Below, one piece after another: positions 14,344 to 31,289 of a stretch of DNA of 45,064 nucleotides. Source of the stretch: Marinisporobacter sp. (GTDB taxonomy: Bacteria; Bacillota; Clostridia; Peptostreptococcales; Thermotaleaceae); assembly GCA_025210525.1 (NCBI GenBank), contig JAOARP010000056.1:1-45064 (forward strand), written 5' to 3'. A program made the translations under genes and the position numbers. The notes under the pieces are model-generated. The model ran no database searches, was not told the DNA's origin, and was given only the letters and a program-made list of their open reading frames with translations. Each line of letters begins with the position of its first letter. Positions within the stretch are counted from its first letter, which is position 1.

Positions 14344-16344
14344 TTGCTTGGAAAAAAATTACTAAGCAAAAACGAAGAGGTTATGAAAGCGTGGAAATCA
14401 TTTATCACCAAGGGGACAATACAAAAAGATCTAATAAGAGATATGATTGCTTATTCGTGGATGCGTAGCAAACTACATGGTGTAGATCCAATGGATGAAG
14501 GTGTTCGAAGTGAATTGTCAGAAAAAGATTTTGAAGAAAGATATGGAAAAAGTATTGCGTTAATTAAAACAGCTATGCCTTTTATGCATAGTCTTCGTCA
14601 AATTGTTGAAAATACAGGTTTTCTTGTAAGACTTACAGATAAGGATGGATATGTGATAGAGTGTATTGGAGATAGGGATCTTTTAGAGAAATACGGGAGA
14701 CTTAATATTTACAAAGGCTGTAATGTGAAGGAATCTATCATTGGAACAAATGCTATAGGAACAGCCCTAGAGATTGGACATCCTATTCAAGTTATGGGTG
14801 CAGAGCATTATTGTAAGCAATATCACAATTGGGCATCTTCGGCTTGCCCCATAAGGGATGAAAGAGAGGAAATCATTGGAGTTTTGAGTGCTACAGGACC
14901 TAATGAAAGTGTGCATCCTCATACATTAGGGATGGTTGTTGCAGCAGCTCAAGCCATAGGAAAAAAAATGAAGCTAGAAAAGACTAATAAAAAGCTAGAT
15001 CGAGCAAATAAGCATTTTTATGCTATTATGGAATCCATTTCTGAAGGGTTAATTTGTACGGATAATAAAGGCATGATTATGGATATTAATTTATTTGCAC
15101 GAAGGTTTTTAGGTCTTAAAGAAGAGGATATATTAGGGAAAAATATTCATGCCATATTAGATCAAAAAAATTACGATAGAATTATGAGAAGAATTAAAAA
15201 TGGGAAAAAATATGAAGAAGAAGAAATTTATTTCAAGAGCAAAAAAGGAAAAGATATTTCTTGCATTGTGACTGTAACCCCCATATTAGACAGAGGAACG
15301 AATGAATTAGAAGGAGTTGTATTTACGTTTAAGGAATCAAAAATGATCCACAGCTTGGTTAATAAAATCGTTGGTGCAGAGGCAAGATTTAGATTCGAAG
15401 ATATATTAGGAAATAGTAAGCAAATAAAAGAGGCTATAAGATTAGCTACTTTAGCTGCCAATACTAATGCAACCATATTATTATTAGGAGAAAGTGGAAC
15501 TGGAAAAGAACTCTTTGCCCAAGCTATTCATAATGAAAGTCCTAGAAGAAAAAATCCCTTTGTATTTTTAAATTGTGGAGCTATTCCTAGAGAACTTGTT
15601 GGAAGTGAGCTTTTTGGATATGTAGAAGGAGCTTTTACAGGAGCTAAAAGAGGAGGGCATCCAGGCAAATTTGAACTCGCTGATGGAGGAACCATCTTTT
15701 TAGATGAAATAGGGGATATGCCTTTAGATACCCAAGCAAATCTACTTCGTGTATTAGAAACAAGGCAAATTGTAAGGATTGGTGGCCATAATGTAATTCC
15801 TATTGATGTAAGGGTTATTGCGGCTACCCATAAAGATTTAAAAAAGGAAGTAGATCTTGGAAACTTTAGAGAAGATCTTTTTTATCGATTAAATGTAATG
15901 CCTATCAAAACCCCTTCCCTAAGAGAAAGAAAGGAAGATATAAAAGTATTTATCGACTATTTTGTAGAAAAATTTAATCGTCGTATGGAAAAAAATATAA
16001 AAGGTGTCCATGAAAGCTTTTATAGAGGACTCATGAATTATCAATGGCCAGGAAATGTACGGGAACTACAAAATGTTATTCAGCTAGTGGTGAATATAGT
16101 GGATGATGGAGAAATCCTTATGTATAAGCATTTGCCGAACACCATGAAATCTAGTAATATTCCAAAAAAAATTGGAATTACAGAACAGCTTATGTCCTTA
16201 GAAGAAATTGAAAAGATGGCTATTGTAAAAACCATACAGGAAGTGGATGGGAATTTAGCATTGGCTTCTAAAATTTTAGGGATTGGAAGAAGTACTTTAT
16301 ATAGGAAAATAGAGAAATATGATTTGAAATATGTATTAAAATGA
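14344..16344 (+). CDS. Sigma-54-dependent activator (AcoR-like: GAF, PAS, AAA+, Fis-type HTH)
   Basis: 666 residues. N-terminal AcoR/DhaR-type GAF region (about 60-210), a PAS domain (about 225-330, IMESISEGLICTDNKGMI), a sigma-54-interacting AAA+ domain with GESGTGKE (Walker A), GAFTGA (sigma-54 contact loop), FLDEIGDMP (Walker B) and FREDLFYRLNV, then a Fis-type helix-turn-helix at the C-terminus (LALASKILGIGRSTLYRKI). Start is TTG, 8 bases after GGAGG (14331-14335). It directly precedes an operon with a sigma-54 promoter, so that operon is its probable target. The signal is unknown; the GAF and PAS domains suggest a small-molecule or redox cue. Confidence 0.92.
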   Translation: MLGKKLLSKNEEVMKAWKSFITKGTIQKDLIRDMIAYSWMRSKLHGVDPMDEGVRSELSEKDFEERYGKSIALIKTAMPFMHSLRQIVENTGFLVRLTDKDGYVIECIGDRDLLEKYGRLNIYKGCNVKESIIGTNAIGTALEIGHPIQVMGAEHYCKQYHNWASSACPIRDEREEIIGVLSATGPNESVHPHTLGMVVAAAQAIGKKMKLEKTNKKLDRANKHFYAIMESISEGLICTDNKGMIMDINLFARRFLGLKEEDILGKNIHAILDQKNYDRIMRRIKNGKKYEEEEIYFKSKKGKDISCIVTVTPILDRGTNELEGVVFTFKESKMIHSLVNKIVGAEARFRFEDILGNSKQIKEAIRLATLAANTNATILLLGESGTGKELFAQAIHNESPRRKNPFVFLNCGAIPRELVGSELFGYVEGAFTGAKRGGHPGKFELADGGTIFLDEIGDMPLDTQANLLRVLETRQIVRIGGHNVIPIDVRVIAATHKDLKKEVDLGNFREDLFYRLNVMPIKTPSLRERKEDIKVFIDYFVEKFNRRMEKNIKGVHESFYRGLMNYQWPGNVRELQNVIQLVVNIVDDGEILMYKHLPNTMKSSNIPKKIGITEQLMSLEEIEKMAIVKTIQEVDGNLALASKILGIGRSTLYRKIEKYDLKYVLK

Positions 16345-16358
16345 TACAAATGTATCAT
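16341..16358 (+). promoter_or_regulatory. Probable enhancer (activator-binding) palindrome
   Basis: ATGATACA-AA-TGTATCAT is an 8+8 perfect inverted repeat overlapping the regulator's stop codon, about 210 bases before the predicted start point of the sigma-54 promoter. A second half-site, TGTATCA, is at 16394-16400. Spacing fits an upstream activator site for the protein encoded just before it. Confidence 0.6.
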
Positions 16359-16417
16359 AATGAAACTGTTGTGAAAAAGATAACAAAGAAAGATGTATCA
16401 AAATAGAACATATATTG

Positions 16418-16454
16418 ATAGAATTGAATGACTTTTTTCAATTCTATTTTTTTA
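16418..16454 (+). terminator. Terminator of the sigma-54 activator gene
   Basis: ATAGAATTGA pairs with TCAATTCTAT (16438-16447), followed by TTTTTTTATTTTT. Confidence 0.8.
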
Positions 16455-16530
16455 TTTTTGAAAAAAATAATAGGTGGGTATAGGTAAAATGAAGGGGTAT
16501 AGAAAATTCAAATATTTATATGATAAGTAT

Positions 16531-16546
16531 TGGCATAAATATTGCG
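16531..16546 (+). promoter_or_regulatory. Sigma-54 (-24/-12) promoter of the Mrp operon
   Basis: TGGCATAAATATTGCG holds the invariant GG and GC of sigma-54 promoters exactly 10 bases apart, with TTGGCA and TTGC blocks matching the consensus. It lies 44 bases before the mrpE start codon and after the regulator's terminator. Confidence 0.82.
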
Positions 16547-16589
16547 TATACTAAATACCAATAAATAAACTATAAATACGGAGGATGTT

Positions 16590-17063
16590 ATGAATAGAAT
16601 GATACGATTATTATTTTTTATAGGTTTTTGGCTCATATTAGCAGAAACCATCAATGTGGAAAGGGTATGGATAGGAATCATAATTTGTTTAGGGGTATAT
16701 GCTTTTAACAAAGAATTAGAGATTTATGATGCGGGAAAATGTTTCCAAAGCTTTAAAAAAATATCCTGCTGCATAACTTATCTATTCATATTGATCAAGG
16801 AAATTGTCGTAGCAAATTTCCAAGTAGCAAAAATTGTACTCAGTCCCAAAATGGATATATCCCCAGAAACTGTGAAATTCCATTCAAAGTTAAAAAGTGA
16901 TTTTTATAGAACAATACTTGCCAATTCTATTACCCTTACACCTGGAACCCTTACGGTTTTTATGGAAGGAGATGAGCTGATTGTTCATTGTTTAAAGAAG
17001 GAGTATATAGAGGACGTTTTAAATTCAAAATTTGAAAAAATACTTTTAAAAATAGAGGAGTAG
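16590..17063 (+). CDS. mrpE: Mrp antiporter subunit E
   Basis: 157 residues with two to three N-terminal membrane helices and a cytoplasmic C-terminal part containing the MrpE signature (ILANSITLTPGTLTV, equal to MbhA of archaeal membrane-bound hydrogenases). A subunit of the multi-subunit sodium/proton antiporter. First gene of the operon; GGAGG lies 7 bases before the ATG, and the sigma-54 promoter is just upstream. Confidence 0.88.
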   Translation: MNRMIRLLFFIGFWLILAETINVERVWIGIIICLGVYAFNKELEIYDAGKCFQSFKKISCCITYLFILIKEIVVANFQVAKIVLSPKMDISPETVKFHSKLKSDFYRTILANSITLTPGTLTVFMEGDELIVHCLKKEYIEDVLNSKFEKILLKIEE

Positions 17064-17067
17064 AAAG

Positions 17068-17337
17068 ATGATACAAAAATTATTGATATTTTCATGTCTT
17101 TTCTTATCTTTTACCATTATATTGTGTATGATTCGAGCTTTAAAAGGGCCAAGTGGAGCAGACCGCTTAGTGGCCATTAATGTAATCGGTACTAAGACTA
17201 TTATATTGATTTCAATTGTTTCGTTTATTTTAAAGGAAAGTTATTTTATTGATGTGGTGCTAGTGTATGCACTGATTAGTTTTATAGCATCTATTGTGAT
17301 CGCTAATTTTATAGAAAAGGAGGGGGAGAAGGAGTGA
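17068..17337 (+). CDS. mrpF: Mrp antiporter subunit F
   Basis: 89 residues, three membrane helices, with the MrpF motif IRALKGPSGADRLVAIN. Starts 4 bases after the mrpE stop codon behind an AGGAG ribosome site. Confidence 0.9.
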   Translation: MIQKLLIFSCLFLSFTIILCMIRALKGPSGADRLVAINVIGTKTIILISIVSFILKESYFIDVVLVYALISFIASIVIANFIEKEGEKE

Positions 17338-17339
17338 AA

Positions 17340-17630
17340 ATGATTCTAATGACTATTTTTATGTTAGGAGGACTATTCTTCTTCGTTGTGGGCACCGTAG
17401 GGATTCTGAGATTTCCAGATCTTTTTACAAGAGCTCATAGTGCAGCAAAATGCGATACATTGGGAGCGGTGTTATGCTTAATTGGATTAATGATTTATAG
17501 CGGATTGAACTTTACAAGTTTAAAGTTATTATTAGTTATTGCTTTTCTTTGGATTACAAATCCAACGGCTACCCATTTAATATCTAAGGCAGCTTTTATG
17601 AAAGAAAAGAATAAAAAGATGATGGAGTGA
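17340..17630 (+). CDS. mrpG: Mrp antiporter subunit G
   Basis: 96 residues, three membrane helices, with the MrpG signature GTVGILRFPDLFTRAHSAAK. The ATG at 17340 has AAGGAG 5 bases upstream; an alternative GTG at 17334 would overlap mrpF. Translationally coupled to its neighbours. Confidence 0.9.
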   Translation: MILMTIFMLGGLFFFVVGTVGILRFPDLFTRAHSAAKCDTLGAVLCLIGLMIYSGLNFTSLKLLLVIAFLWITNPTATHLISKAAFMKEKNKKMME

Positions 17631-17635
17631 GAAAA

Positions 17636-17875
17636 ATGGAAAGTTTTAGTGTTATTATGCTTTTGTTTTTAATATGTGCGGCCATTTCTGTATCTATTAT
17701 TAAAGATTTATTGGGAACGATTATTGTTTTTACAGTTTATAGCCTTATTATGGCTATTCTTTGGCAACAATTGAATGCACCAGATTTAGCCATAACGGAA
17801 GCAGCTGTTGGTGCAGGGATTACTACTTTATTATTTGTTCTTACATTGAAGAAAATAAGAGGTGCGGGTAAATGA
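17636..17875 (+). CDS. MrpA C-terminal fragment subunit, DUF4040 (MbhD-like)
   Basis: 79 residues, two to three membrane helices, with the conserved block LNAPDLAITEAAVGAGITTLLF. In canonical Mrp complexes this segment is part of the large MrpA protein; in archaeal Mbh/Mbx clusters it is the separate gene mbhD. Here too it is separate. ATG at 17636 with GGAG 8 bases upstream. Confidence 0.85.
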   Translation: MESFSVIMLLFLICAAISVSIIKDLLGTIIVFTVYSLIMAILWQQLNAPDLAITEAAVGAGITTLLFVLTLKKIRGAGK

Positions 17876-18144
17876 AAAAAATAACGGCAATACTTTTGAC
17901 CATGATTATTATAGGGATTCTCCTCATAGGGGTTCAGGAACTTCCTAAGTTTGGGAAAGCTAATAATCCAGCGAATAATTATGTGATGGAAAAATATATA
18001 GAAGATGGTGTAAAGGATACAGGGGCATTAAATATTGTAACGGGAATTATACTAGATTATAGAGCCTTTGATACTTTTGCAGAAGCCACTGTATTGTTTA
18101 CAGGAGCTATTGCGGTTTTGATGGTTTTAAAAAAAGAAGAGTAA
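17872..18144 (+). CDS. MrpA C-terminal fragment subunit (MbhE-like)
   Basis: 90 residues with an N-terminal and a C-terminal helix and the block ILDYRAFDTFAEATVLF, typical of the last part of MrpA/MbhE. Overlaps the preceding gene by the ATGA type of junction. Confidence 0.82.
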   Translation: MKKITAILLTMIIIGILLIGVQELPKFGKANNPANNYVMEKYIEDGVKDTGALNIVTGIILDYRAFDTFAEATVLFTGAIAVLMVLKKEE

Positions 18145-18166
18145 ATATAGAAAGTGAGTGCTTTAT

Positions 18167-18586
18167 ATGCATAATACTATATTAAAAGAAATTAGCAAAA
18201 TAATTATTCCTTTTATTCAGATATTTGGATTATATGTGATCTTTCATGGACATCTTTCTCCAGGAGGAGGCTTTGCTGGAGGGACTGTTATAGGCACAAG
18301 TTTTATTTTATATAGAATTGTATTTGGAAAAGAAGCAGCGAAATGTAAATTTAGCTATGAAAGACTGATAAAGCTTATCTGTAGTGCGTTGATTCTTTAT
18401 GGTATTTTGAAGGGATATAGCTTTATTACAGGAGGAAGTAATTTACATGTACCACAATTTCCTCTTGGAAAACCTGGAAATATTCTAAGTGGCAGATATT
18501 TATTACCATTAAATATAGCAGTAGGGATGATTGTGTCTGTAACTGTATACTTTTTTTTCAGTTTGTTTTATGAAGGAGAAATATAA
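18167..18586 (+). CDS. mrpB: Mrp antiporter subunit B
   Basis: 139 residues, four membrane helices, MnhB domain with FHGHLSPGGGFAGGTVIG, the hallmark of MrpB/MbhF. ATG at 18167 preferred because GTGAG lies 8 bases upstream; a GTG at 18158 in the same frame is possible. Confidence 0.88.
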   Translation: MHNTILKEISKIIIPFIQIFGLYVIFHGHLSPGGGFAGGTVIGTSFILYRIVFGKEAAKCKFSYERLIKLICSALILYGILKGYSFITGGSNLHVPQFPLGKPGNILSGRYLLPLNIAVGMIVSVTVYFFFSLFYEGEI

Positions 18587-18587
18587 T

Positions 18588-18950
18588 ATGGAAAAATTAT
18601 TAACAAATTATTTTGAAACAGGATCAATGGTTTTATTTGGAGTAGGTTTTGTAACGCTATTGCTCCATAATAACTTAATTAAAAAAATTATTGGAATGAA
18701 TATTATGGATACAGCTGTGTTTTTATTTTTTATTGCAAAGGGAAGTATAAAAGGGAAAGAAGCACCTATTGTCACAGGTGTTCATAAAGGAATAGAAGGA
18801 TATATCAATCCCATTCCTACAGCACTCATGCTTACAGGAATTGTTGTGGCAGTGAGTGTTACTGCTTTTGCCCTTGCCCTTACGGTAAAGCTTTATGAAA
18901 AATATGGAACTGTTGAATTAGATGAAATTATGAAAATGAGGGGGGATTAG
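18588..18950 (+). CDS. mrpC: Mrp antiporter subunit C (NuoK-like)
   Basis: 120 residues, three membrane helices; related to NuoK of complex I. Motifs: NLIKKIIGMNIMDTAVFLF and NPIPTALMLTGIVVAVSVTA. AAGGAG lies 9 bases before the ATG, inside the end of mrpB. Confidence 0.88.
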   Translation: MEKLLTNYFETGSMVLFGVGFVTLLLHNNLIKKIIGMNIMDTAVFLFFIAKGSIKGKEAPIVTGVHKGIEGYINPIPTALMLTGIVVAVSVTAFALALTVKLYEKYGTVELDEIMKMRGD

Positions 18951-18951
18951 A

Positions 18952-20424
18952 ATGGCTTATGCAAATAATTTTCCATTACTGGTGATCTTGATCCTTTTTA
19001 TTAGTGCATTTACTATGCCACTGATCAAGAAAAATAAATTTGTAAAGATCTTAAGCTTATCAACTATGAGTAGTTCTTTTCTTTTAGGGATTTTCACATT
19101 ACAAAGGGTATTAGAAAAGGGAAGTTTTTCTTATAAGGTAGGACACTTTGAATCACCTTGGGGAATAGAATTTCAAATCGGAACGGTAGAAAGTATGATG
19201 ATTATTTTATTTACAGGTGTTGCAACACTTGTCCTGTGGTATTCTGTTTATACCATTGAAAATGAAATAAAAGAAAACAAAATAGGTTTTTATTATTTAC
19301 TCATTAATATTTTAGTAGGCTCTTTATTAGGAATGGTATTTACAAATGATTTATTCAATGCTTTTGTATTCATTGAAGTAACAACCCTTGCTTCTTGTGG
19401 AATTATCGTTGTAAAGGATAAAAAAGAAAATATCGCTGCTACTTTAAAATATTTGATCTTAAGTAGTTTAGGTTCGGGCCTTGTTTTGATGGGAATTGCA
19501 TTTTTATATGACATTACAGGAAATTTGAATATGACTTATATACACAAGGAATTGATGAGGACTTATGGAGAATACCAAAATACACTTCATATTGCAGCAG
19601 GGCTTTTTACAGTAGGAATCGGAATAAAAAGTGCCATGTTCCCTATGCATATATGGCTTCCAGATGCTCATTCTAGTGCGCCATCTTCTTCAAGTGCTAT
19701 TCTTTCAGCACTCGTACTAAAATCACCTATTTTACTCCTTATAAAAATACTATATAGAATATTTGGTGAACAGATGATTAGCGAATTTTCCATACTCAAC
19801 TTGATTTTGATATTAGGGACCGTTGGAATGATCATGGGTTCAGTTTTCGCCATCAAGCAAAAGGAGATCAAAAGAGTCATTGCTTATTCAAGTGTTGCTC
19901 AGATGGGGTATATATTCTTTGGAATAGGTCTTGGAAATAAGCTAGGGCTTACCATGGCAGTCTTTCATATTATAGGGCATGCAGTAACGAAATCTGCATT
20001 GTTTTTAACAGCAGGTAGAATGATTGAAAAGACAGGAAAGAAAAAATTGAATGATCTAAGGGGCATTGGAAAGGAAATGCCTTATACCTTGGGCTTGTTT
20101 ACAATGGGAGCCTTGTCTATGGTAGGAATTCCAATACTTCCTGGATTTATCAGTAAGTGGTATTTATCCCTTGCTAGTATTGATTCAGGGAAAATGATCT
20201 ATGTGGCAGCAATACTTCTTAGTAGTTTATTAAATGCAGCTTACTATTTCCCTATTGTTGTAAATGGATATTTCGGAGAAGAAAATCTAAAGGATAAAAT
20301 TTATAAATCTAAAGAAAATACTATGGAAGCATTGATTCCTTTAGGGTTTTTGATTGTAGGAATGATTGTTGTGGGAGCAATTTCCCATAAAATCATGGAT
20401 ATCATTGCTTTAGGAATTGTATAG
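18952..20424 (+). CDS. mrpD: Mrp antiporter subunit D (proton/cation-translocating)
   Basis: 490 residues, about 14 membrane helices, NuoM/NuoN-like. The conserved glutamate is in NAFVFIEVTTLAS and the conserved lysine in GIGIKSAMFPMHIWLPDAH; a second lysine is in LSALVLKSPILL. The histidine in PDAH, conserved in proton-pumping relatives, is present. Begins 1 base after mrpC. Confidence 0.88.
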   Translation: MAYANNFPLLVILILFISAFTMPLIKKNKFVKILSLSTMSSSFLLGIFTLQRVLEKGSFSYKVGHFESPWGIEFQIGTVESMMIILFTGVATLVLWYSVYTIENEIKENKIGFYYLLINILVGSLLGMVFTNDLFNAFVFIEVTTLASCGIIVVKDKKENIAATLKYLILSSLGSGLVLMGIAFLYDITGNLNMTYIHKELMRTYGEYQNTLHIAAGLFTVGIGIKSAMFPMHIWLPDAHSSAPSSSSAILSALVLKSPILLLIKILYRIFGEQMISEFSILNLILILGTVGMIMGSVFAIKQKEIKRVIAYSSVAQMGYIFFGIGLGNKLGLTMAVFHIIGHAVTKSALFLTAGRMIEKTGKKKLNDLRGIGKEMPYTLGLFTMGALSMVGIPILPGFISKWYLSLASIDSGKMIYVAAILLSSLLNAAYYFPIVVNGYFGEENLKDKIYKSKENTMEALIPLGFLIVGMIVVGAISHKIMDIIALGIV

Positions 20425-20435
20425 GGAGGTAGACT

Positions 20436-21884
20436 ATGAATGCATTTATACTCGTTCCCATTCTTATGCCATTTTTATTGGCTATATTAGGAACAAAGGT
20501 TTTGTATAAAGGAAAAAATATTAGAAATAGATATGCCATTATAGGCGTAAGTTTAAATTTATTAGCATTAATAGGTGTTCTTTACATGGGTGGAGGAGAG
20601 ATTCATATATTAAAGATTAATCCATTCATAGATGTTTATTTCAAAATAGATAAGCTAGGGATATTATTTTCCTTACTGGCATCTATTTTATGGATCTTTA
20701 CAACTTTTTATTCTTCTGTATATATGGATCATGAAAAAAAACAAGAAAGATTCTTTATCTTCTTCATTTTAACATTGGGAATTACCTTAGGGATTGCTTT
20801 TTCAGGAAATTTATTTACCCTTTATATATTCTATGAATTATTAACATTAGCTACATTCCCATTAGTGATTCATGCAGGAAGTAAAGAAGCTTTATATAGT
20901 GGAAGAAAATATTTGATTTATTCCTTTGGAGGAGCAACACTAGCTCTTTTAGGCATGATTTTACTATTTAGCATTAGTAATACCCTTAACTTTGTTGAGG
21001 GAGGGGTATTAGGAAATATTATGATAGAAAATCCTAAACTATTACTGACTATCTTTTTAGTTATGTTTATTGGATTTGGGGTAAAAGCTGCTATTGTACC
21101 TTTTCATTCTTGGCTTCCAGCTGCAATGGTTGCCCCTACTCCTGTAAGTTCACTGCTACATGCTGTGGCAGTTGTGAAGTCTGGAATATTTGTATTGGTT
21201 CGTGTTTGTTATTTTATCTTTGGTGCAGATGTTATAAGAACAATTCATGGAAATACTTATATAGGAATATTGGTTTTTTTGACGATTCTTTTAGGTTCTT
21301 TATTAGCATTGCATCAGGAAAATCTAAAAAAGAGGCTTGCTTATTCTACTGTAAGTCAACTAGGGTATATTGTACTGGGGATTATTCTTTTAAATGAAGA
21401 TGCTTTGATTGGAGGACTTCTTCATCTTGTGAATCATGCAGTGATAAAAATCACTTTGTTTTTCTGTGTAGGAGCCATTTATTTCATGACTCATAAGAAA
21501 AACATAGGGGAGATTAGGGGAATTGGAAAACAAATGCCTGTGACTATGTGGTGCTTTGGGATTGCATCTATTTCTCTTATAGGAATTCCTCCCACAAATG
21601 CTTTTGTAAGTAAGTGGTTTCTAGCCCTTGGAGGATTATCTGAAAATAAGGTTATTTTCCCAATTATTTTATTAGTGAGTGCTTTTCTTACAGCTGCATA
21701 TTTATTGCCTATTGTAGTGACAGCCTTTTTCCATGGAGAAGAAAACAAAGATGTAGAAAAATTAGATCCTCCTCCTGGGATGATGGTACCTATTGTTTTA
21801 TTAACAGGAGTGACTATTTTCTTAGGATTATTTCCAAATGTGATTCTTCATTATATACAAAAAATTGTTGAGAATATCGTATAA
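20436..21884 (+). CDS. Second antiporter-like subunit (MrpD/NuoM family)
   Basis: 482 residues, about 14 helices. Glu in LFTLYIFYELLTLATFP, Lys in GFGVKAAIVPFHSWLPAAM and Lys in HAVAVVKSGIF are conserved. The PAAMVAPTPVSSLLHA form resembles MrpA N-terminal/NuoL proteins more than MrpD. RBS GGGAGG precedes the ATG. Confidence 0.85.
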   Translation: MNAFILVPILMPFLLAILGTKVLYKGKNIRNRYAIIGVSLNLLALIGVLYMGGGEIHILKINPFIDVYFKIDKLGILFSLLASILWIFTTFYSSVYMDHEKKQERFFIFFILTLGITLGIAFSGNLFTLYIFYELLTLATFPLVIHAGSKEALYSGRKYLIYSFGGATLALLGMILLFSISNTLNFVEGGVLGNIMIENPKLLLTIFLVMFIGFGVKAAIVPFHSWLPAAMVAPTPVSSLLHAVAVVKSGIFVLVRVCYFIFGADVIRTIHGNTYIGILVFLTILLGSLLALHQENLKKRLAYSTVSQLGYIVLGIILLNEDALIGGLLHLVNHAVIKITLFFCVGAIYFMTHKKNIGEIRGIGKQMPVTMWCFGIASISLIGIPPTNAFVSKWFLALGGLSENKVIFPIILLVSAFLTAAYLLPIVVTAFFHGEENKDVEKLDPPPGMMVPIVLLTGVTIFLGLFPNVILHYIQKIVENIV

Positions 21885-21911
21885 AAGATGTTTTACCAAA
21901 GAGGGGGAAGT

Positions 21912-23885
21912 GTGGTGCTTTATAAAATAGCTTTAATGACCATCTTATTATTACCAAGCTTTGCGGCAGTAATGGGATATATGTTAGGAAAGAAAAGCGA
22001 AAAAAATAGAGATTTATTGAATATGCTTATAACAGGAATAGAATTACTCATAGTAGTGATGCTTTACAAAGAGGTTATGAGGGGACCTATTGAACTTTTT
22101 ATACCCGATATTATGGGTACAGGGTTATATCTAAAACTAGATGTTTTCCGATATATATTTGTATTAATTAGTGCTTTTATATGGTTTTTAACGACCATAT
22201 ATTCTACCCAATATTTAATAAGATATAAAAACAGAAACAGATATTATGCATTTTTCATGCTTACTCTAGGAAGTACGGTAGGAATATTTTTATCTGAAAA
22301 TATATTAAATCTATTTACCTTCTTTGAAATTATGTCTTTTACTTCTTATGCTCTTATTATCCATGATCAGGATGAATATGCATTAGATGCAGGAAAGATC
22401 TATATTGGTATGGCTATAGCTGGTGGAATGGTACTTTTAATGGGGTTATTCCTATTATATGAGTACACAGGGATATTAAATATTAGTCAATTAGGAGAAG
22501 CGGTAGACGTTTTAGGTAATATGAAATACCTTATAAGCTTTTTGATTATTGTAGGATTTGGAGTAAAGGCGAGCATTGTACCTCTTCATGTATGGGTACC
22601 AAAGGTTTATCCAGCTGCCCCTACTCCTGCTAGTGCAATTCTTTCTGGAGTGCTTTTAAAGACAGGTTTATTTGGGATTATGATTACAACAGAAAACCTA
22701 ATGGGGGGAGATTTTGTAGTTTCAAGTGTTGTATTTGGATTAGGTCTTGCCAATATGTTTTTAGGAGGAATGCTTGCATTATTACAAAGAAATATCAAGA
22801 GGATATTGGCATACAGCGGAATGAGTCAGGCGGGATATATCTTAGTGGGGATAGGTCTTTGTGGCATATTAAAAGAACATAAGGGGGTTGCTCTTTACGG
22901 AACTCTTTATCATATTATCAATCATGCTGTGTTTAAAGTATTACTTTTTATGGGAACAGGAATCATTTACATGGTTTTAAGAGATGTAAGTATTAATGCT
23001 ATTAAAGGCTTTGGAAAGCATAAAAAAATACTCAAAGGTGTATTTTTTATAGGACTTTGTGCCATTATGGGCATGCCTGGATTTAATGGATTTATTAGCA
23101 AAACTCTTTTACACGAAGCTTTATATGAAGCTCATCATATGTATCCTAATACGTGGATGACTTTAGCAGAAATTATTTTTACCATTAGTAGTAGCTTTAC
23201 AGTAGCTTATATGCTGAAAATTTTTGTGACTGTATTTATGGAGAAGGATGAAAAATATAGAGGGCAATTTAAAGAGCATATCAAAAAAAGAGCATTACTA
23301 CCTATGATCATTCTAAGTGTAGCCGTTTTGTATATAGGAATCAATCCAGGAAAGATTCTTGTGATACTCAATAAGGCTGTAGAAAATTTTGGGGTAACTA
23401 AAGCTTTAGAAGTGCATTTTTATACCTTTAGCAATATAAAAAGCTCTTTCATGACTATTTTTATAGGTATAGGAATTTATATAGGTTTTGTTAGAGGATA
23501 TCTAAGAAAGAAGGACGGAGAAGAAAGCTTCTATGTGAATCCATCCCTTAGTTGGTTTAGTCTTGAAAGAAATATATATGCACCAATTCTTCAGGGTACT
23601 TTCTCATCTACATCAGCAGTTTTTCATGTTCTTGATCGGGGAGTAGTGAATTTTGTTCATTATCTAGGAGACCGTGTAAAAGCTTTTAGTGGAATGAAGA
23701 TCAAAAGAAACTATGGAAATTATAGTATGGAAAATGGAGATAATTTTGTAATAGAAAATAATGATGATTTTCATAGTTTAAAAGAGATTATGGCGAAATT
23801 ATCTAAGAATATGAATAGCTTAATGTATTCCGTATTTATTGTTGCTGCAATTCTTGCAGTGATGCTAACTATATTAGTTTTTTAA
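21912..23885 (+). CDS. Third antiporter-like subunit with C-terminal extension (copy 1 of duplicate)
   Basis: 657 residues from GTG at 21912 (GTG at 21915 is equally possible; GAGGGGG is at 21901-21907). About 14 helices of the NuoL/MrpA type, then a C-terminal extension of about 150 residues with two more predicted helices. Conserved Glu in LNLFTFFEIMSFTSYA and Lys in GFGVKASIVPLHVWVPKVYP and GVLLKTGLFG. The histidine that usually follows the WLPxA motif is replaced: VPKVYPAAP rather than LPKAHPAAP. Highly similar along its whole length to the next gene, so the pair arose by tandem duplication. Confidence 0.85.
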   Translation: MVLYKIALMTILLLPSFAAVMGYMLGKKSEKNRDLLNMLITGIELLIVVMLYKEVMRGPIELFIPDIMGTGLYLKLDVFRYIFVLISAFIWFLTTIYSTQYLIRYKNRNRYYAFFMLTLGSTVGIFLSENILNLFTFFEIMSFTSYALIIHDQDEYALDAGKIYIGMAIAGGMVLLMGLFLLYEYTGILNISQLGEAVDVLGNMKYLISFLIIVGFGVKASIVPLHVWVPKVYPAAPTPASAILSGVLLKTGLFGIMITTENLMGGDFVVSSVVFGLGLANMFLGGMLALLQRNIKRILAYSGMSQAGYILVGIGLCGILKEHKGVALYGTLYHIINHAVFKVLLFMGTGIIYMVLRDVSINAIKGFGKHKKILKGVFFIGLCAIMGMPGFNGFISKTLLHEALYEAHHMYPNTWMTLAEIIFTISSSFTVAYMLKIFVTVFMEKDEKYRGQFKEHIKKRALLPMIILSVAVLYIGINPGKILVILNKAVENFGVTKALEVHFYTFSNIKSSFMTIFIGIGIYIGFVRGYLRKKDGEESFYVNPSLSWFSLERNIYAPILQGTFSSTSAVFHVLDRGVVNFVHYLGDRVKAFSGMKIKRNYGNYSMENGDNFVIENNDDFHSLKEIMAKLSKNMNSLMYSVFIVAAILAVMLTILVF

Positions 23886-23908
23886 AAAATTGATGAAGAG
23901 GGTGGTTT

Positions 23909-25894
23909 TTGTTGATTCATAAAATCATATTGTTGATGATCTTACTTCTTCCTGGAATAAGCGCAATGGTTGGATGGATTTTAGGGAGAAAAAATGAAAG
24001 GTATCGAGATATTTTAAATGTCTTAATGACAGGGATAGAACTTCTTTTGGTGATCCTTCTTTACAATCGGGTACTCAAGGAGCCTATTACCCTTTTCATA
24101 CCGGATATTATGGGGATAGGTCTCTATCTAAAGTTAGATGCTTTTAGATATATTTTTGTTTTTATTACTACTTTTGTATGGTTTTTAGCAACTATGTATT
24201 CTACTCAGTATCTTATAAGGTATAAGAACAGAAATAGGTATTATGCTTTCTTTATGCTTACCTTAGCTAGTACCGTTGGAATATTTTTATCTGAAAATAT
24301 ATTAAATCTATTTACCTTTTTCGAAATCATGTCTTTTACCTCCTATGCCCTCATTATTCATGATGAGGATGAATATGCCCATGATGCAGGAAAATCATAT
24401 TTAGGAATGGCGATTGCTGCCGGAATGATCTTACTTATGGGATTATTTTTACTATATGATTATACAGCTACTCTAAATATAAGTGAATTAGCAGAAAAAG
24501 TAGGAGAGATGGGAAACATCAAATATTTAATTAGTATATTGATTATTATAGGGTTTGGGACAAAGGCAAGTATGTTTCCTCTTCATGTGTGGTTACCAAA
24601 AGCTCATCCAGCAGCTCCTACTCCTGCTAGTGCTGTACTTTCTGGAATACTTATAAAGACAGGTATTTTTGGTATCATTATAACAGTAGGAATTATGATG
24701 GAGGGGGATGTATTCCTTTCTACAGCTATATTAATTCTTGGCTTTACAAACATGTTTGTAGGCGGATTCTTCGCATTGTTCCAAAGAAATATCAAAAGAA
24801 TTCTTGCATATAGTAGCATGAGTCAGGCAGGATATATACTCGTTGGGATAGGGCTTATAGGATTATTAAAAGATCATAAGCCAATTGCCATATATGGAAC
24901 TCTTTATCATATATTCAATCATGCTATATTTAAGGTACTTTTATTTATGGGTGCAGGAATTATTTACATGATCTTGCATGAATTGAGTATTAATGAAATC
25001 AGAGGCTTTGGAAAACACAAGATTTTATTAAAAGGTGTATTTTTCACAGGATTATTAGCTATTATTGGGATGCCTGGATTTAATGGTTTTATTAGTAAAA
25101 CACTACTACATCATGCTTTAGCAGAGGCTCATGAGATGTATCATAGTATATGGTGGTCCTTAGGGGAGGCTGTATTTACTGTAAGTAGTGCATTTACAGT
25201 AGCCTATCTTCTTAAAATATTTATTGCTGTATTTATGGAGAAAAACGAAAAGTATAAAGGTCAATATAAAGATCATGTTCGAAAAAGAGCACTATTCCCT
25301 ATGGCTATTTTAGGAATAGTTGTGATCCTTATAGGATTTAAGCCAAAATTGTTATTTCCATTAATAGAAAGTGCTATGAAGACTTTTGATGTAAATGGAG
25401 CTATAGAATCTCATTTTTATACCTATGGTAATATACAATCTTCAATTATTACTATTCTAATAGGTGTATTCATTTATCTAGGTTTTGTTCAAATGTATCT
25501 TAGAAAGCATGAGGAAGGGAAGTATTTTTATATTAATCCTTCCTTGAGTTGGTTTGATCTTGAAAGAGATTTTTATCATCCAATACTTCGGATGCTTTTC
25601 ACATCTACCTCTGCTGTTTTTCATTTTCTAGATAGAATCGTAGTGGATATGGTGTATTTAGGAAGAGCTTTAGTAAAAGCTTTGAGTGGTATTCAGATTA
25701 GGAGAGAAAAATATAAAAAACCTGGAACAAAAAATGCGGTGGATGTAAAGCATTTTATAGAGGATATTCATTTTGAATTCAATAGTTTATCAGATGTAAT
25801 GGGGAGAATATATAGTCGTGCAAATAGCTTAATGTATAGTCTATTTATGGTAGCTCTTATTCTAGCAATGGTTTTAGTGATTCTTGTTTTCTAG
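23909..25894 (+). CDS. Fourth antiporter-like subunit with C-terminal extension (copy 2 of duplicate)
   Basis: 661 residues from TTG at 23909 (TTG at 23912 also possible; AGGGTGG is just upstream). Same architecture as the previous gene, with FFEIMSFTSYALIIHDEDEYA, GFGTKASMFPLHVWLPKAHPAAP and GILIKTGIFG; this copy keeps the histidine. The C-terminal part (INPSLSWFDLERDFYHP...STSAVFHFLDR) is shared with its duplicate. Last gene of the operon, ended by a long palindromic terminator. No hydrogenase, formate dehydrogenase or other redox subunit is present in the operon. Confidence 0.85.
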   Translation: MLIHKIILLMILLLPGISAMVGWILGRKNERYRDILNVLMTGIELLLVILLYNRVLKEPITLFIPDIMGIGLYLKLDAFRYIFVFITTFVWFLATMYSTQYLIRYKNRNRYYAFFMLTLASTVGIFLSENILNLFTFFEIMSFTSYALIIHDEDEYAHDAGKSYLGMAIAAGMILLMGLFLLYDYTATLNISELAEKVGEMGNIKYLISILIIIGFGTKASMFPLHVWLPKAHPAAPTPASAVLSGILIKTGIFGIIITVGIMMEGDVFLSTAILILGFTNMFVGGFFALFQRNIKRILAYSSMSQAGYILVGIGLIGLLKDHKPIAIYGTLYHIFNHAIFKVLLFMGAGIIYMILHELSINEIRGFGKHKILLKGVFFTGLLAIIGMPGFNGFISKTLLHHALAEAHEMYHSIWWSLGEAVFTVSSAFTVAYLLKIFIAVFMEKNEKYKGQYKDHVRKRALFPMAILGIVVILIGFKPKLLFPLIESAMKTFDVNGAIESHFYTYGNIQSSIITILIGVFIYLGFVQMYLRKHEEGKYFYINPSLSWFDLERDFYHPILRMLFTSTSAVFHFLDRIVVDMVYLGRALVKALSGIQIRREKYKKPGTKNAVDVKHFIEDIHFEFNSLSDVMGRIYSRANSLMYSLFMVALILAMVLVILVF

Positions 25895-25944: not shown

Positions 25945-26883
25945 TTAGAAGCTCGTATCAGAGCCGATATAACAGGCAATATCATTATTTAAGAAAATAT
26001 CCTGAATAGCATTTAATTTTTTGAGTGGGGTAGCTTCTTCATTTCTATAAGGATATAGCTTTCCTAGCTGACTCCATTTAGAGTCTCCTAATCTATGGAA
26101 GGGAAGAATATTGATTTCAAACAATCCTAATCTTTTCATAAACTGAACTGTTGCATGAATATTTTCATCTGTATCATTAAAGGAACGGATAACAGGCATT
26201 CTTAAAACTAATCGACCTTTCCAAGAGGAAGAACTCAAGTTTTCGATATTTTTTAAAATCAAATCATTATAAACCCCTGTTTTTTCTTTATGTTTTTCTC
26301 GATCCATATGTTTCACATCAATAAAGGCAAAGTCAATTAGATCCATCAGCTGAAGAAAAGTATTAGGGTCTGTATAAGCAGTCGTTTCTATAGCTGTATG
26401 AATATATTTTTCTTTACAAAGCTTAAGCATTTCTAGTAAAAACTCTTTTTGTAAAAATGCTTCTCCACCACTGAAGGTAACCCCTCCTCTTTCTCCCCAA
26501 TATTGACGATCACGAGAAAGAATCTTTATTAAATCTGTTGAAGTATACCATTTACCGCAAACCTTTAAGGCTTCATGGTAACAAGCCTTTGTACAATCAA
26601 AGGTTTTACAACTATTGCAAAGATTCCAGTCAATAGAGACTTTTTCGTGATCTATGTGAATGGCATTATAAGAACAAGCATTGACGCATCGAGTACACCC
26701 TTTAGCAGCTTTACATTTATTTTGTGCAAACATAAGCTTTTGTCTATAAGTCCAACCTTCAGGGTTTGCACACCAATCGCACTGAAGAGGGCATCCAGAG
26801 AAAAAGCATATAGTTCTACAACCAGGACCATCATGAACGGAATAACTTTGGATATCAAAGAGTAATCCTTTTTTTTCTTTCAT
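25945..26883 (-). CDS. hpdA: 4-hydroxyphenylacetate decarboxylase activating enzyme (radical SAM)
   Basis: 312 residues. Glycyl-radical-enzyme activase: uses S-adenosylmethionine and a [4Fe-4S] cluster to put the glycyl radical on HpdB. Visible: SVHDGPGCRT, radical SAM cysteines in CPLQCDWC (CX3CX2C), an insert with two ferredoxin-like cysteine groups (CTRCVNAC, CNSCKTFDCTKAC), GGVTFSGGE, and DVKHMDREKHKEKTGVYNDL, which closely resembles known HpdA sequences. ATG at 26883 is chosen because AAAAGGAG precedes it by about 8-9 bases; a longer start at 26907 has no RBS but overlaps the MFS stop. Last gene of the cluster. Confidence 0.9.
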   Translation of the reverse strand: MKEKKGLLFDIQSYSVHDGPGCRTICFFSGCPLQCDWCANPEGWTYRQKLMFAQNKCKAAKGCTRCVNACSYNAIHIDHEKVSIDWNLCNSCKTFDCTKACYHEALKVCGKWYTSTDLIKILSRDRQYWGERGGVTFSGGEAFLQKEFLLEMLKLCKEKYIHTAIETTAYTDPNTFLQLMDLIDFAFIDVKHMDREKHKEKTGVYNDLILKNIENLSSSSWKGRLVLRMPVIRSFNDTDENIHATVQFMKRLGLFEINILPFHRLGDSKWSQLGKLYPYRNEEATPLKKLNAIQDIFLNNDIACYIGSDTSF

Positions 26884-26903
26884 TTGTCCAAACTCCTTTT
26901 TTA

Positions 26904-28163
26904 TCATTTATGTTCTGCAGATAATGGCAAGAAGAAGGCTACAACGGCAGAAACAGCAAAGGAACAGGTTGCGAAAATGATAGAGTTTTGATAATTTCCT
27001 GATAGATCAAATAAATATCCGCCCATGAAGCTTCCTACAGCAGGGCCGATTCCCATAACGATTAAGGTGGCAGCCCCCCAAATCTTTCCTAAAGTCTTTC
27101 CACCATAAATAGAACCTGCATAGCCAGCAACACCACCAGGCTCGATAGCCCAATAAATAGCAAATAGAAGACAAGCTATACCACTAAAAGCCATAGAAGA
27201 TTTTGTACTTAGTAAAAGAATACAGGCAATAACTCCTGTGATTGGAGCAAAAATTAGTACAGTTTTTCTTCCCTTTGCTTCTGATATGGACTTTGTTACA
27301 ATATGGTCTGCGATTTTTCCCATAAGAGGCATGGTGAAAATTCCAGCAACACCAATAATAACGTATAAATTTGTAGCTGCATCTAGTGATAATTTAATAT
27401 CACGAGTCCAATACATAACTACTTGTGTCCAGATTAAGAATTCAGCTACCATACTCGTTAAGAAAGCAATGATAGCTCCCCAGATAGCAGATTTGCTAAA
27501 GGCTTCTCTAAGGCTCCAAACATAATCATCCTTTTTAGAAGAATCTCCTGTTTTTACAAGTCCAAAGGGTTCAAGACCATAATCCTGTGGATTTTTCTTT
27601 GCGACTTTGGCTGCAATTACAAGAGCAATAAAAACAACAATAGCTAAGCCTTTCATAGCTAAGCGCCAATCCATAGTTAAAAGAATTTTTTTTACACCTA
27701 AGCTTAAAACTACTTGTGCTACAGGAGCACCCATGAAAGCGAAGCCCCACATAGTAGCATAAGATTTTCCTACATACCATTTGCGAACAGAAACGGTTGA
27801 GGAAACCCAAAGCATACCTGTTCCAATTCCAGCGAAAATTACGTATGGAATCAAATAAGATAGATAAGTTTGTGCATTACTAGTGATATAAAAACCAAGG
27901 GCTGCACAAACAGAACCGATGGCGTAAGCTGGCTTTGTTCCCCATTTATCAATGATCATACCACTAAAAAAAGCAGTGATAGCATAAACAGTCATCATTA
28001 AGGAATATCCTAATGATAATTGGGAAACACTCCATCCTAAACCCTTTGACATAGGACCTAATAAAACAGAGAAGGTGGATCTATAACCAAAAAGACAAAA
28101 AACAGCAAGCCATGAAGCGAGAACAACCATATGACCCAAATGTTTTGCTTTTTTTTCATCCAT
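26904..28163 (-). CDS. MFS transporter (oxalate/formate antiporter-like) of the hpd cluster
   Basis: 419 residues, 12 predicted membrane helices, major facilitator of the OFA/monocarboxylate type (GMIIDKWGTKPAYAIG between helices 2 and 3). AAGGAGG lies 7 bases before the ATG at 28163. Placed between hpdC and hpdA, so it probably moves 4-hydroxyphenylacetate or another aryl acid in, or product out; the direction and substrate are inference. Confidence 0.85.
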   Translation of the reverse strand: MDEKKAKHLGHMVVLASWLAVFCLFGYRSTFSVLLGPMSKGLGWSVSQLSLGYSLMMTVYAITAFFSGMIIDKWGTKPAYAIGSVCAALGFYITSNAQTYLSYLIPYVIFAGIGTGMLWVSSTVSVRKWYVGKSYATMWGFAFMGAPVAQVVLSLGVKKILLTMDWRLAMKGLAIVVFIALVIAAKVAKKNPQDYGLEPFGLVKTGDSSKKDDYVWSLREAFSKSAIWGAIIAFLTSMVAEFLIWTQVVMYWTRDIKLSLDAATNLYVIIGVAGIFTMPLMGKIADHIVTKSISEAKGRKTVLIFAPITGVIACILLLSTKSSMAFSGIACLLFAIYWAIEPGGVAGYAGSIYGGKTLGKIWGAATLIVMGIGPAVGSFMGGYLFDLSGNYQNSIIFATCSFAVSAVVAFFLPLSAEHK

Positions 28164-28186
28164 TTTCAAACCTCCTTTTTATAAAT

Positions 28187-28220
28187 AAGAAGAGCGCAAA
28201 AATTTATGAGCGCTCTTCTT
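28187..28220. promoter_or_regulatory. Intercistronic hairpin between hpdC and MFS gene
   Basis: AAGAAGAGCGC and GCGCTCTTCTT form a perfect 11-bp stem around a 12-base loop. On the coding (minus) strand no T-run follows, so it may be a weak terminator or an mRNA-processing/stability element lowering expression of the transporter and activase relative to hpdBC. Confidence 0.65.
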
Positions 28221-28229
28221 TTGCATAAA

Positions 28230-28496
28230 TTATTTTTCTTGATAACCTTCACAAGTTACAGCGCAAAGTTCGCCATATGTCCATGATTCTTTTTCAAGGC
28301 CTAAGCAGGTACCTACATTGTTCTCATTGGGATTTATGAAGTGAGCACAATTTTTACACTTTTTTAGTGCAGTAAATTTTGGACAGGTATCTGTATCTGT
28401 AAAAATAATATTATTTGTTAATCTACAAATGCCCTTTGCCACATCAATAGATGCGAAATTTGAGCAATCATTATGTTTTTGATTTGTTTTATCCAT
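28230..28496 (-). CDS. hpdC: 4-hydroxyphenylacetate decarboxylase small subunit (iron-sulfur)
   Basis: 88 residues. Small subunit needed for activity and stability of HpdB, binding two [4Fe-4S] clusters. The ligand pattern fits: His8, Cys11, Cys24, Cys38 for one cluster; Cys47, Cys50, Cys64, Cys82 for the other (family knowledge aligned by eye); Cys78 is extra. The segments GICRL, KCKNCAHF and GLEKESW resemble known HpdC. ATG at 28496 is chosen: GGGGTG lies about 7 bases upstream, overlapping the end of hpdB. Confidence 0.9.
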   Translation of the reverse strand: MDKTNQKHNDCSNFASIDVAKGICRLTNNIIFTDTDTCPKFTALKKCKNCAHFINPNENNVGTCLGLEKESWTYGELCAVTCEGYQEK

Positions 28497-28500
28497 TATT

Positions 28501-31218
28501 TTACACCCCTTCGTATTCAGTTCTTGCAACTACTTCATCTTGGATAGGTTTGCCGATTTCACACCAGTATTGTGTAAAGCCTGCAACCCGAACCATTAGA
28601 TCTCTATAATTATCAGGTTTTTCTTGAGCAGCTTTAAGTACTTTGGAGTCCACAATATTGTATTGGATATGGAAGCCTCCTTTTCTCATATAAGCTCTTG
28701 TTAAATCTAATAGCTTTTTAGATCCTTCTATGCCTTTAATAGCACTTGGATGGATTTTTAAGTTCATTTGAGAGTTTTGAGACTGAGTATGATCCCAAAC
28801 AGTAGCTGAATTAAACAATGCATAAGGTCCATTCTTATCTGTTCCTGGATAAGCCGACATAGAACCATCTGCATAAGTAGTACCAGCTAAACGTCCATCA
28901 GCAGAAGCAAGAGTTGCACGACCTTGTGCTCCATGGGTTGATACAGAAATTTGACAAGCATATAAAGGCTTTGCATAAAGAGATTCATGGTTTTTACACA
29001 TACTACAGAACCAATCTTCGTATTCTTTTAAGATATTGTCTGCATAGGAGTTGTCATTACCATATTTTGGAGCTGTTAAGCAATCTCCATAAAGATCATC
29101 ATAAGGATCATTCATTTCTGCTTTTTCTTGATCTGCTAAAGAATAGCTTCCTATTTCATCAGCAGCCTTAAAACCAAAGTTATGAAGAATAGCTTCTCTC
29201 ATGGTATCAATTGTATATTTTTTATCATCATAAACTAATCTTTTGATAGCCGCTAAAGAATTGACCATATTTGCAGTACCACAACTTTCTACATTAAAGG
29301 TTCCATTGTAGCGATATCCTAAATGACCGATATGTTGACCTTTGTCTAAACAATCTGGTTTTAGCATAGAGCTAAATATGGACATATTATGTTTTCTCCA
29401 GATATCATGTTGAATATTATTTGTTGTAGTTAAGCAATCAACAGTTATATCATAATAATCCTTGAAAGTATCCCATAATTCTTCATAAGTTTCAAGTTTT
29501 TTATTGTGAGGTGGATATACTTGAATACCTGTTCTATAATCTTTACCGTTTGTAAGAACTAATTCAAGGACCTTTGGATTTGCGATAAAGTGTACACCTA
29601 CACTAGTTGGTTGACCAGCACCCCCTGGGATTTCATAAGTCTTTCCATTAAGAGTCAAAGTTTTCCAACAGGCAGGAGAAGTTTCAAGACATCCTCCAAT
29701 AGCAAAGGAGCGAGCTTCTTCTACTGTCATTCCCTCAGGACCATATTGCTGCAATAAGAATTCAATACCGCCTCGGTTGTTCATCCAAGCTGGATATCCT
29801 GTACCTGTTTTATCACATTCAATACATTTTAATAGGAATTCTTCTGGTAATTTCTCATCATAAAGAACAGATAGTGTTGGTTGTGGAGATGAACAAGTAA
29901 TACCTGCTTCTACAATAAGCATTTCCAAAGGATTTGTAGCCGATTGATTATCACTTGTTAAACCACCAATGCTTAAGTTATTAAAGGTATTTCCAGAAAG
30001 AACACCCCCCACTACTCCAGTAGATGCAAAACAGTCAATACAGGTCATTTTGATTCTATGAAGTTCTAAAAGCTCAAGAACTTCTTTTTCTGTAATACGG
30101 TTATTTTCCATATCTTGCTCAAACCATGGATAAAGAACTTGACCAAGTCTTCCAGGAGATAATCCTGAAATAGCATCTTCGTTTAAGCAAGTAATATGTA
30201 CAATATAAGAAAGCTGGAGGGCTTCTCTAAAGGTACGAGGCTGTTTATGAGCAATCCACTCTAAACAAGATGTAATTTCCTCATATTCTTGTTTTTGAAT
30301 AGGGTCTATTGTTATAGAAGAAAGCCTTTCTGCTTCCTTTGCATAATTTAGGATCCAAGTTTGTACCCCTTCTAACACAATTCTTACGGCTTCATAGAAA
30401 TACAAACGATCCATACCATTGAGTCCATCACCATCTGCTCTTCCAGCAACCTTGTTTTTACAATCTTTAGCCATCTTTATAAGGGTATCAAAGCCATATT
30501 GTAGAGGATAATAATAGTTAATAATTTCCCTTCCTTGTGGTAAGGTGAATCCAGAGTCAAACATACAAATGAGAGTTCTCATAATATTTTCTTTCATTTC
30601 GTATTCTGGAATCATTTGTTCATATTTATGTCCTAAGTCATCTACACTTTTTCCAACCCATTCTTTTGCCAACTTTACGAGAACAGGGATTTCTTCTTTA
30701 CGCATTCCAAATTTACCAGCAATAGAAACTACATTACCAAAGCTTTCAGTAACATTCCCACCGCCTGTACCAAATTTGCTCAACTCTCCTGAACTAGCAC
30801 TTCCTCGATCAAGAGCTTCTTTATAAAGTTCGTCCTCTTTTGCTACGAAAAATCCTTCAGATAACCAGGGCATAGGGAAGGACCCTCTATAATAGCTTGC
30901 TTTTTGCATAACGAGCTTTTCACTAGGGAAGATTACAGGAGTTAGATGAGAAAAAGCATACTTTAAGGCTTCTGCACGTCTTACAACTGTAACTTCACCC
31001 TCTAATTCATTCCATTTACGGGTATACCAATAAGGAAATTCTGTATTGGCAGAAGATAATGTGTCATAATAAATATCTCTTAATTTTTTTGCTCTTTCTG
31101 TAGGTTCTTTTTGAACTTCTCGATCAATCATTTTTTCTGGTGCATTTCCACCAGCTTGGAAATTGATGGGTAATCCTTTTGCAGCTAAGATATCTGCTAA
31201 TCTTTTTTTAGATTCCAT
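28501..31218 (-). CDS. hpdB: 4-hydroxyphenylacetate decarboxylase large subunit (glycyl radical enzyme)
   Basis: 905 residues. Decarboxylates 4-hydroxyphenylacetate to p-cresol during tyrosine fermentation. Counting from the ATG at 31218: thiyl Cys510 and Glu512 ([11 protein letters not shown]), His543, Glu644 ([10 protein letters not shown]) and radical Gly880 ([10 protein letters not shown]). These match in order and spacing the Cys503/Glu505/His536/Glu637/Gly873 set I recall for the Clostridium scatologenes enzyme. The adjacent hpdC favours this assignment over indoleacetate or phenylacetate decarboxylases, which I recall as lacking the small subunit. AAGGGGGGG lies 5 bases before the ATG. 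Confidence 0.92.
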
Positions 31219-31289
31219 CAAAACCCCCCCTTTTTTTTATTTGAATTCTTAAGATGAAACCTATGGCTGTAACGAACTAAAATTTACAC

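Follow-up and report, generated by a model that had tools for sequence, protein, structure and literature searches.

The window analysed here, a stretch of 45,064 nucleotides, is contig 27 of a 66-contig, 4.69-Mb genome of Marinisporobacter sp. (JAOARP010000056.1). It encodes a sigma-54 enhancer-binding protein (EBP) and, downstream of it, an 11-gene Mrp-type operon. Our favoured reading, which we hold to be very probable, is that this dedicated EBP switches the Mrp operon by way of sigma-54. Such control had been proposed in a preliminary description of the window, and it is now strongly supported by the conservation of the EBP, the promoter and the enhancers. Sigma-54 promoters are silent until a sensor protein acts, and a whole Mrp complex under sigma-54 would mean that Na+/H+ exchange in these anaerobes is induced by a specific signal and does not run as constant housekeeping. 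Distant relatives share the arrangement, which makes it probable that a signal switches the pump and that it is not always on.

An activator gene and a -24/-12 promoter ahead of mrpE

The EBP (14344-16344, + strand, 666 aa) begins with a TTG codon preceded by AGGAGG. Pfam places a GAF domain at residues 94-206, a PAS domain at 224-330, the sigma-54 AAA+ domain (Sigma54_activat, PF00158, E 1.6e-69) at 354-521 and a C-terminal Fis-type helix-turn-helix (HTH_8, PF02954) at 618-659. The GAFTGA loop is present in the translation, and the same genome carries rpoN (G000:C53:6257-6733).

The promoter, TTGGCATAAATATTGC (16530-16545, + strand), has the GG-N10-GC form and matches the -24/-12 consensus exactly. 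Forty-four bases separate its GC (16544-16545) from the mrpE ATG at 16590. All elements named in the preliminary description lie just where it had put them. The pattern TTGGCA-N6-TTGC-N-T matches without mismatch at 13 places in the 4.69 Mb, the mrp promoter among them, and with at most one mismatch at 106 places, against 20 for a reversed control pattern. A looser pattern (TGGCAC-N5-TTGCW, three mismatches) gave 169 matches in the window against 134 expected; it is uninformative alone and was set aside.

In the proposed mechanism, the Fis-type helix-turn-helix would bind three 17-bp enhancers upstream of the promoter. Once the DhaR-like GAF-PAS sensor is activated, the AAA+ domain with its GAFTGA loop would engage the sigma-54 RNA polymerase waiting at TTGGCATAAATATTGC, with DNA looping from the enhancers to the -24/-12 site, and drive open-complex formation. 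Transcription of mrpEFG-mbhDE-mrpBCD and three more antiporter-like subunits would then start near 16557.

Conservation of the arrangement

A match to mrpE was found in 12 of the 16 family genomes searched, our own included. In 10 of these 12 the EBP gene immediately precedes mrpE, in the same orientation; in the remaining two the Mrp is a distant one, with no EBP in the stretches examined. When 391 genomes of the class were scanned with the sensor, nine (again with our own) gave a match at E <= 1e-100, and all nine have an adjoining mrpE, as judged by comparing coordinates by eye. None of the weaker matches listed (E from 4e-79 up) adjoins mrpE. Four class genomes were equated with those of the named loci L171, L175, L177 and L178 (by equal match identities, and for L178 by equal coordinates) and were counted once. 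Two more linked loci, G676 and G760, belong to the same phylum but lie outside the class. All linked EBPs and one orphan form a single clade (support 100/100) that extends beyond the class, and 23 of the 24 clade members sampled adjoin mrp.

The promoter goes with the EBP. At most one mismatch to the -24/-12 pattern was found in 21 of 21 EBP-linked loci, 15 of them exact, whereas 200 shuffles of these loci gave means of 0.225 and 0.01 loci, respectively. G676 and G760 each have a one-mismatch promoter, which brings all linked loci combined to 23 of 23. We also compared linked with unlinked operons, using 29 mrpE loci (8 linked, 21 not) of the 62 class matches listed, our own genome excluded and "unlinked" meaning that no clade EBP match adjoins in the class sensor scan. 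When one mismatch is allowed, 7 of 8 linked loci have a promoter no more than 400 bp from mrpE, and 0 of 21 unlinked ones do (Fisher 5e-6); in the eighth linked locus, G037, an exact promoter lies 377 bp upstream of mrpE. The preliminary description had named conservation in related genomes as a check on both promoter and palindrome; the promoter is conserved at every linked locus, and the symmetry of the palindrome, discussed below, varies.

Upstream enhancers

Three copies of a 17-bp upstream activating sequence (UAS) with the consensus TGTATC-N5-GAWACA precede the promoter on the + strand. UAS1, TGTATTAAAATGATACA (16332-16348), overlaps the end of the activator gene and has one mismatch to the consensus, making it the best site in the genome. 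UAS2, TGTATCATAATGAAACT (16351-16367), follows 19 bp after UAS1, and UAS3, TGTATCAAAATAGAACA (16394-16410), 62 bp after UAS1. Counted back from the -24 element, the three start at 198, 179 and 136 bp. UAS1 and UAS3 have the TGT-N10-12-ACA form exactly, while UAS2 ends in ACT.

Only 10 sites with at most two mismatches exist in the 4.69 Mb, three of them at the mrp locus, and the best matches elsewhere in the genome have two mismatches. Sites at this threshold are found in 10 of 10 family regions. Outside the family there are 12 such sites in 8 of 11 loci, and none in 200 shuffles. The spacing is kept as well. A spacing of 19 bp was imposed between UAS1 and UAS2 when sites and symmetry were scored, but an unconstrained listing gives the same 19 bp in 14 of 21 linked loci, and a UAS1-UAS3 spacing of exactly 62 bp in 9 of 21 and of 61-64 bp in 13 of 21.

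The layout may have been kept even where the motif has shifted, as in the two loci outside the class. G676 has a TGTTC-GAACA variant at nearly the same places: TGTTCCGTTATGGAACA precedes the -24 element by 131 bp, and sequences close to it do so by 194 and 176 bp. In G760, a half-symmetric TGT-N11-ACA lies 192 bp before it with a near copy at 135. Sites with at least five symmetric positions number one in G676, against 0.008 in shuffles, and none in G760.

The preliminary description had drawn attention to an 18-bp palindrome, ATGATACAAATGTATCAT (16341-16358), with arms TGATACA and TGTATCA. It is there, at the junction of UAS1 and UAS2. An alternative is that this palindrome serves as an operator in its own right, bound by the EBP or by some other dimeric regulator. 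In favour of this, it is an inverted repeat in the window, it is one of three zero-mismatch places in the genome for TGATAC-N3-TGTATCA, and its symmetry of 8/9 recurs in L178 and G352. The outer UAS halves are poor in G352, though the palindrome there lies within a long hairpin, and the junction is also symmetric at a second Mrp operon in Maledivibacter. Over 20 other loci, however, symmetry ranges from 2 to 8 of 9, and it is only 2-7 in the 18 loci besides those two. The third site has no abutting partner and is of the TGT-N11-ACA form, and TGT-N10-12-ACA is a UAS class described in the main text of a survey of clostridial EBPs (PMC6615313). Chiefly on account of the solitary third site, we regard the 17-bp repeat as the unit. 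The palindrome is probably the abutting ends of two UAS copies and not a binding unit itself, and we consider an operator role for it quite improbable.

Transcript boundaries and housekeeping expression

A terminator-like hairpin with a T run (16417-16448, + strand, 12-pair stem) lies between the activator gene and the mrp promoter. It would probably end the activator transcript ahead of that promoter, in which case the pump genes would depend on the switch. The preliminary description had called it the activator's own terminator. The hairpin and the T run are indeed present, and the fold (16412-16465) is stable at -13.3 kcal/mol (z -4.85, with 0 of 200 shuffles as stable), but a consensus terminator scan of the window did not list it. 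The counterpart in G007 is not beyond chance (z -1.48, 16 of 200 shuffles as stable). Of the 21 linked loci, 15 have a stem of at least 7 pairs followed by a T-rich tail, against a mean of 1.75 (maximum 5) in shuffles, and 13 have one of at least 9 pairs, against 0.21; in six of the 21 no stem with a T tail was found.

These boundaries bear on an alternative, in which a sigma-A housekeeping promoter, or transcripts running on out of the activator gene, would supply most of the operon's mRNA and the sigma-54 promoter would only add a conditional boost. In favour of it, Mrp often serves basal homeostasis, a weak sigma-70-like match (9/12) is present within the activator gene (16296-16323), the G007 hairpin is marginal, and six linked loci lack a stem with a T tail. 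Against this, a scan of the window found no sigma-70-like promoter match in 16345-16590, the window's own hairpin is stable, and stems with T tails are far more frequent at linked loci than in shuffles. We judge mainly housekeeping expression to be unlikely, and favour a switch by the EBP.

Targets elsewhere in the genomes

In 17 other genomes, 25 UAS sites with at most one mismatch were found, 17 of them at the linked mrp operon and two at a second mrp operon; a control pattern gave one site in the same genomes. The remaining six sites lie off mrp, and for five of these six the 3-kb locus shows no promoter within one mismatch, which leaves little sign of a wider regulon. The sixth, at L208 1501-1766 (G008), is a one-mismatch UAS with a one-mismatch promoter about 250 bp on, before an open reading frame (ORF); it could be an extra target or chance.

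The EBP might mainly govern other genes, its place beside mrp being incidental. The genome has 32 matches to the sigma-54 AAA+ domain, six of the 25 sites are off mrp, with a promoter at L208, and the clade includes an orphan. Set against these are the 19 sites at linked or second mrp operons and the 23 of 24 clade members that adjoin mrp, which make an incidental adjacency highly improbable. The Mrp operon thus stays the favoured target.

The second mrp operon with UAS sites is that of Maledivibacter halophilus. Its mrpE is distant (E 3.9e-17), and the stretch examined shows no adjoining EBP. At L215 15259-15888 (- strand) it has a UAS pair and an exact -24/-12 site ahead of a 116-aa ORF without an NCBIfam match, which is followed by mrpE. 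The two UAS copies precede the -24 element by 186 and 167 bp, nearly the same distances as in the first operon of this species (184 and 165 bp). These copies are inverted and directly follow a gene that by eye resembles FeoB, and they could also form its terminator. It is the sole EBP-less mrp locus examined that has both UAS and promoter. In 11 other second-copy or EBP-less mrp stretches, four of them loci of the 29-locus comparison, neither a promoter with at most one mismatch nor a UAS with at most three was found within 1.5 kb.

Besides the marginal G007 hairpin, several observations weigh against EBP-driven sigma-54 control. The UAS consensus was derived from family loci, and the count outside the family is for this reason its sole independent test. 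In that set, G084 has one site with four mismatches and G149 one with three, and no UAS was found in G037. Outside the class, G676 and G760 have none within three mismatches. Four of the 17 other genomes have no UAS site with at most one mismatch. At up to three mismatches our own genome has 156 places against 96 for the control pattern, so weak UAS sites mean little. Finally, the orphan clade member (L173 5210-7210), from a metagenome-assembled genome (MAG), has no mrp, UAS or promoter after it, and only a distant mrpE is shown in its genome.

Three family genomes carry genes for an NADH-dependent [FeFe] hydrogenase of group A6 close to mrp (L093 1428-3188, L095 12617-16821 and L094 3-800). 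Co-regulation of these genes with mrp was considered and is not supported, as the UAS sites with at most one mismatch there sit at mrp, bar one at G012:C67.

The sensor

The closest named relative of the activator is from a Marinisporobacter sp. MAG (95% sensor identity). The top NCBIfam models are DhaR and PrdR, and the protein falls below the equivalog cut-off of each (NF008485, 429.8 bits against 551; NF041552, 427 bits against 795). A structure search returned DhaR as the nearest fold to the sensor and names no signal. Identity to E. coli DhaR is 21-22%, and the partner differs: E. coli DhaR goes with dihydroxyacetone kinase, whereas the EBP here adjoins the Mrp operon.

The sensor thus has DhaR architecture with residues specific to its clade. 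The GAF motif W-T-C-S-A-A-P has become W-T-S-S-A-C-P, which shifts the Cys three residues on, and Arg96 is invariant in the clade. The preliminary description suggested that the GAF/PAS domains may read a metabolic or redox signal, a point on which neither the fold nor these residues decide. It is tempting to speculate that this re-tooled GAF sensor, with its moved Cys and Arg96, directly reads a redox, thiol or energy signal and thereby, by way of sigma-54, makes Na+/H+ exchange follow the cell's fermentative or redox state. We offer this only tentatively, as something that may well prove wrong. If true, ion energetics would be governed in the all-or-none fashion of Stickland metabolism and hydrogen metabolism. 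A presumed inducing signal could be tested with a reporter, since sensor clade, enhancers and promoter are all conserved.

The Mrp operon

The operon runs from 16590 to 25894, all on the + strand. It opens with mrpE (16590-17063, PF01899), mrpF (17068-17337, PF04066) and mrpG (17334-17630, PF03334). Next are an MbhD-type subunit (17627-17875, PF13244) and an MbhE-type subunit (17872-18144, PF20501), then mrpB (MnhB; 18158-18586, PF04039) and mrpC (18570-18950, PF00420). Four antiporter-like subunits, all PF00361, close it: D1 (18952-20424), D2 (20436-21884), D3 (21888-23885) and D4 (23909-25894).

MnhE, MrpF, MnhG, MnhB, MrpC and D-type subunits thus occur together, as in Mrp (MnhABCDEFG) antiporters and the Mbh membrane module, and the product is predicted to be a Na+/H+ antiporter. 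An Mrp antiporter operon is defined by a single MrpA with C-terminal fused MbhD/MbhE parts, and this feature is missing: MbhD and MbhE are separate genes here, with three to four antiporter-like subunits across the linked genomes. There is no hydrogenase gene within the operon.

The large subunits D3 and D4 also stand in tandem (21888-25894 in the window) in three other genomes of the genus and in G002 and G009, while G001, G004, G005 and G012 have a single large antiporter-like subunit instead. In the G009 operon (L094), the D1 and D4 matches are each in two pieces, perhaps from frameshifts in the genome or the assembly.

Relation to known sigma-54 systems

According to the main text of Nie et al. 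2019, 39 EBP groups exist in 57 Clostridiales, with the promoter consensus TTGGCATNNNNNTTGCT (PMC6615313). For fifteen of these groups it gives UAS of the TGT-N10-12-ACA form, often several of them. The usual UAS-promoter distance is given as 100-250 bp, the EBP is mostly beside its target, and 65% of EBPs have one target operon (PMC6615313). In promoter type, UAS form, multiple UAS, distance and adjacency, the EBP of the window matches the groups as that text describes them. What sets it apart is the target. Eight of the groups have targets of unknown function, and an Mrp target is absent from all 39 in Table 1 of the main text (PMC6615313). This is a known sort of EBP system with a new sort of target.

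The nearest precedents are single antiporter genes. OrdR operons include nhaC, treated in that main text as part of arginine/ornithine transport (PMC6615313), and in C. difficile a -24/-12 promoter precedes the CD2733-CD2734.1 operon, which has a single-gene Na+/H+ antiporter annotation (PMC7438776). As here, an annotated antiporter gene lies behind a -24/-12 promoter in both cases. These, however, are single genes in other operons, whereas the Mrp complex here is multisubunit. A term search of the available text of PMC12316311 and PMC4641369 gave no mention of Mrp or antiporter. Sigma-54 control of Mrp is not described in the available portions of PMC12316311, PMC3543383, PMC2700814, PMC7438776, PMC4452262, PMC12516955 and PMC6615313, and searches of a limited literature library found no paper on it. 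This agrees with the preliminary description, whose author knew of no Mrp operon controlled by sigma-54.

Neighbouring features

The Mrp operon is adjoined on its far side by a likely p-cresol-forming cluster (25945-31221, - strand). It encodes the large subunit of 4-hydroxyphenylacetate decarboxylase (1699 bits against a cut-off of 1150), a radical SAM protein and a major facilitator superfamily (MFS) transporter, with a candidate for the small subunit of the decarboxylase at 28230-28529. A second EBP (32656-34359, + strand) has PrdR as its best NCBIfam model at 525.5 bits, below the cut-off of 795, and adjoins a 3-hydroxyacyl-CoA dehydrogenase gene. At the contig start, a tandem repeat (1-1611; 258-bp unit, 6.2 copies) overlaps a 922-aa ORF.

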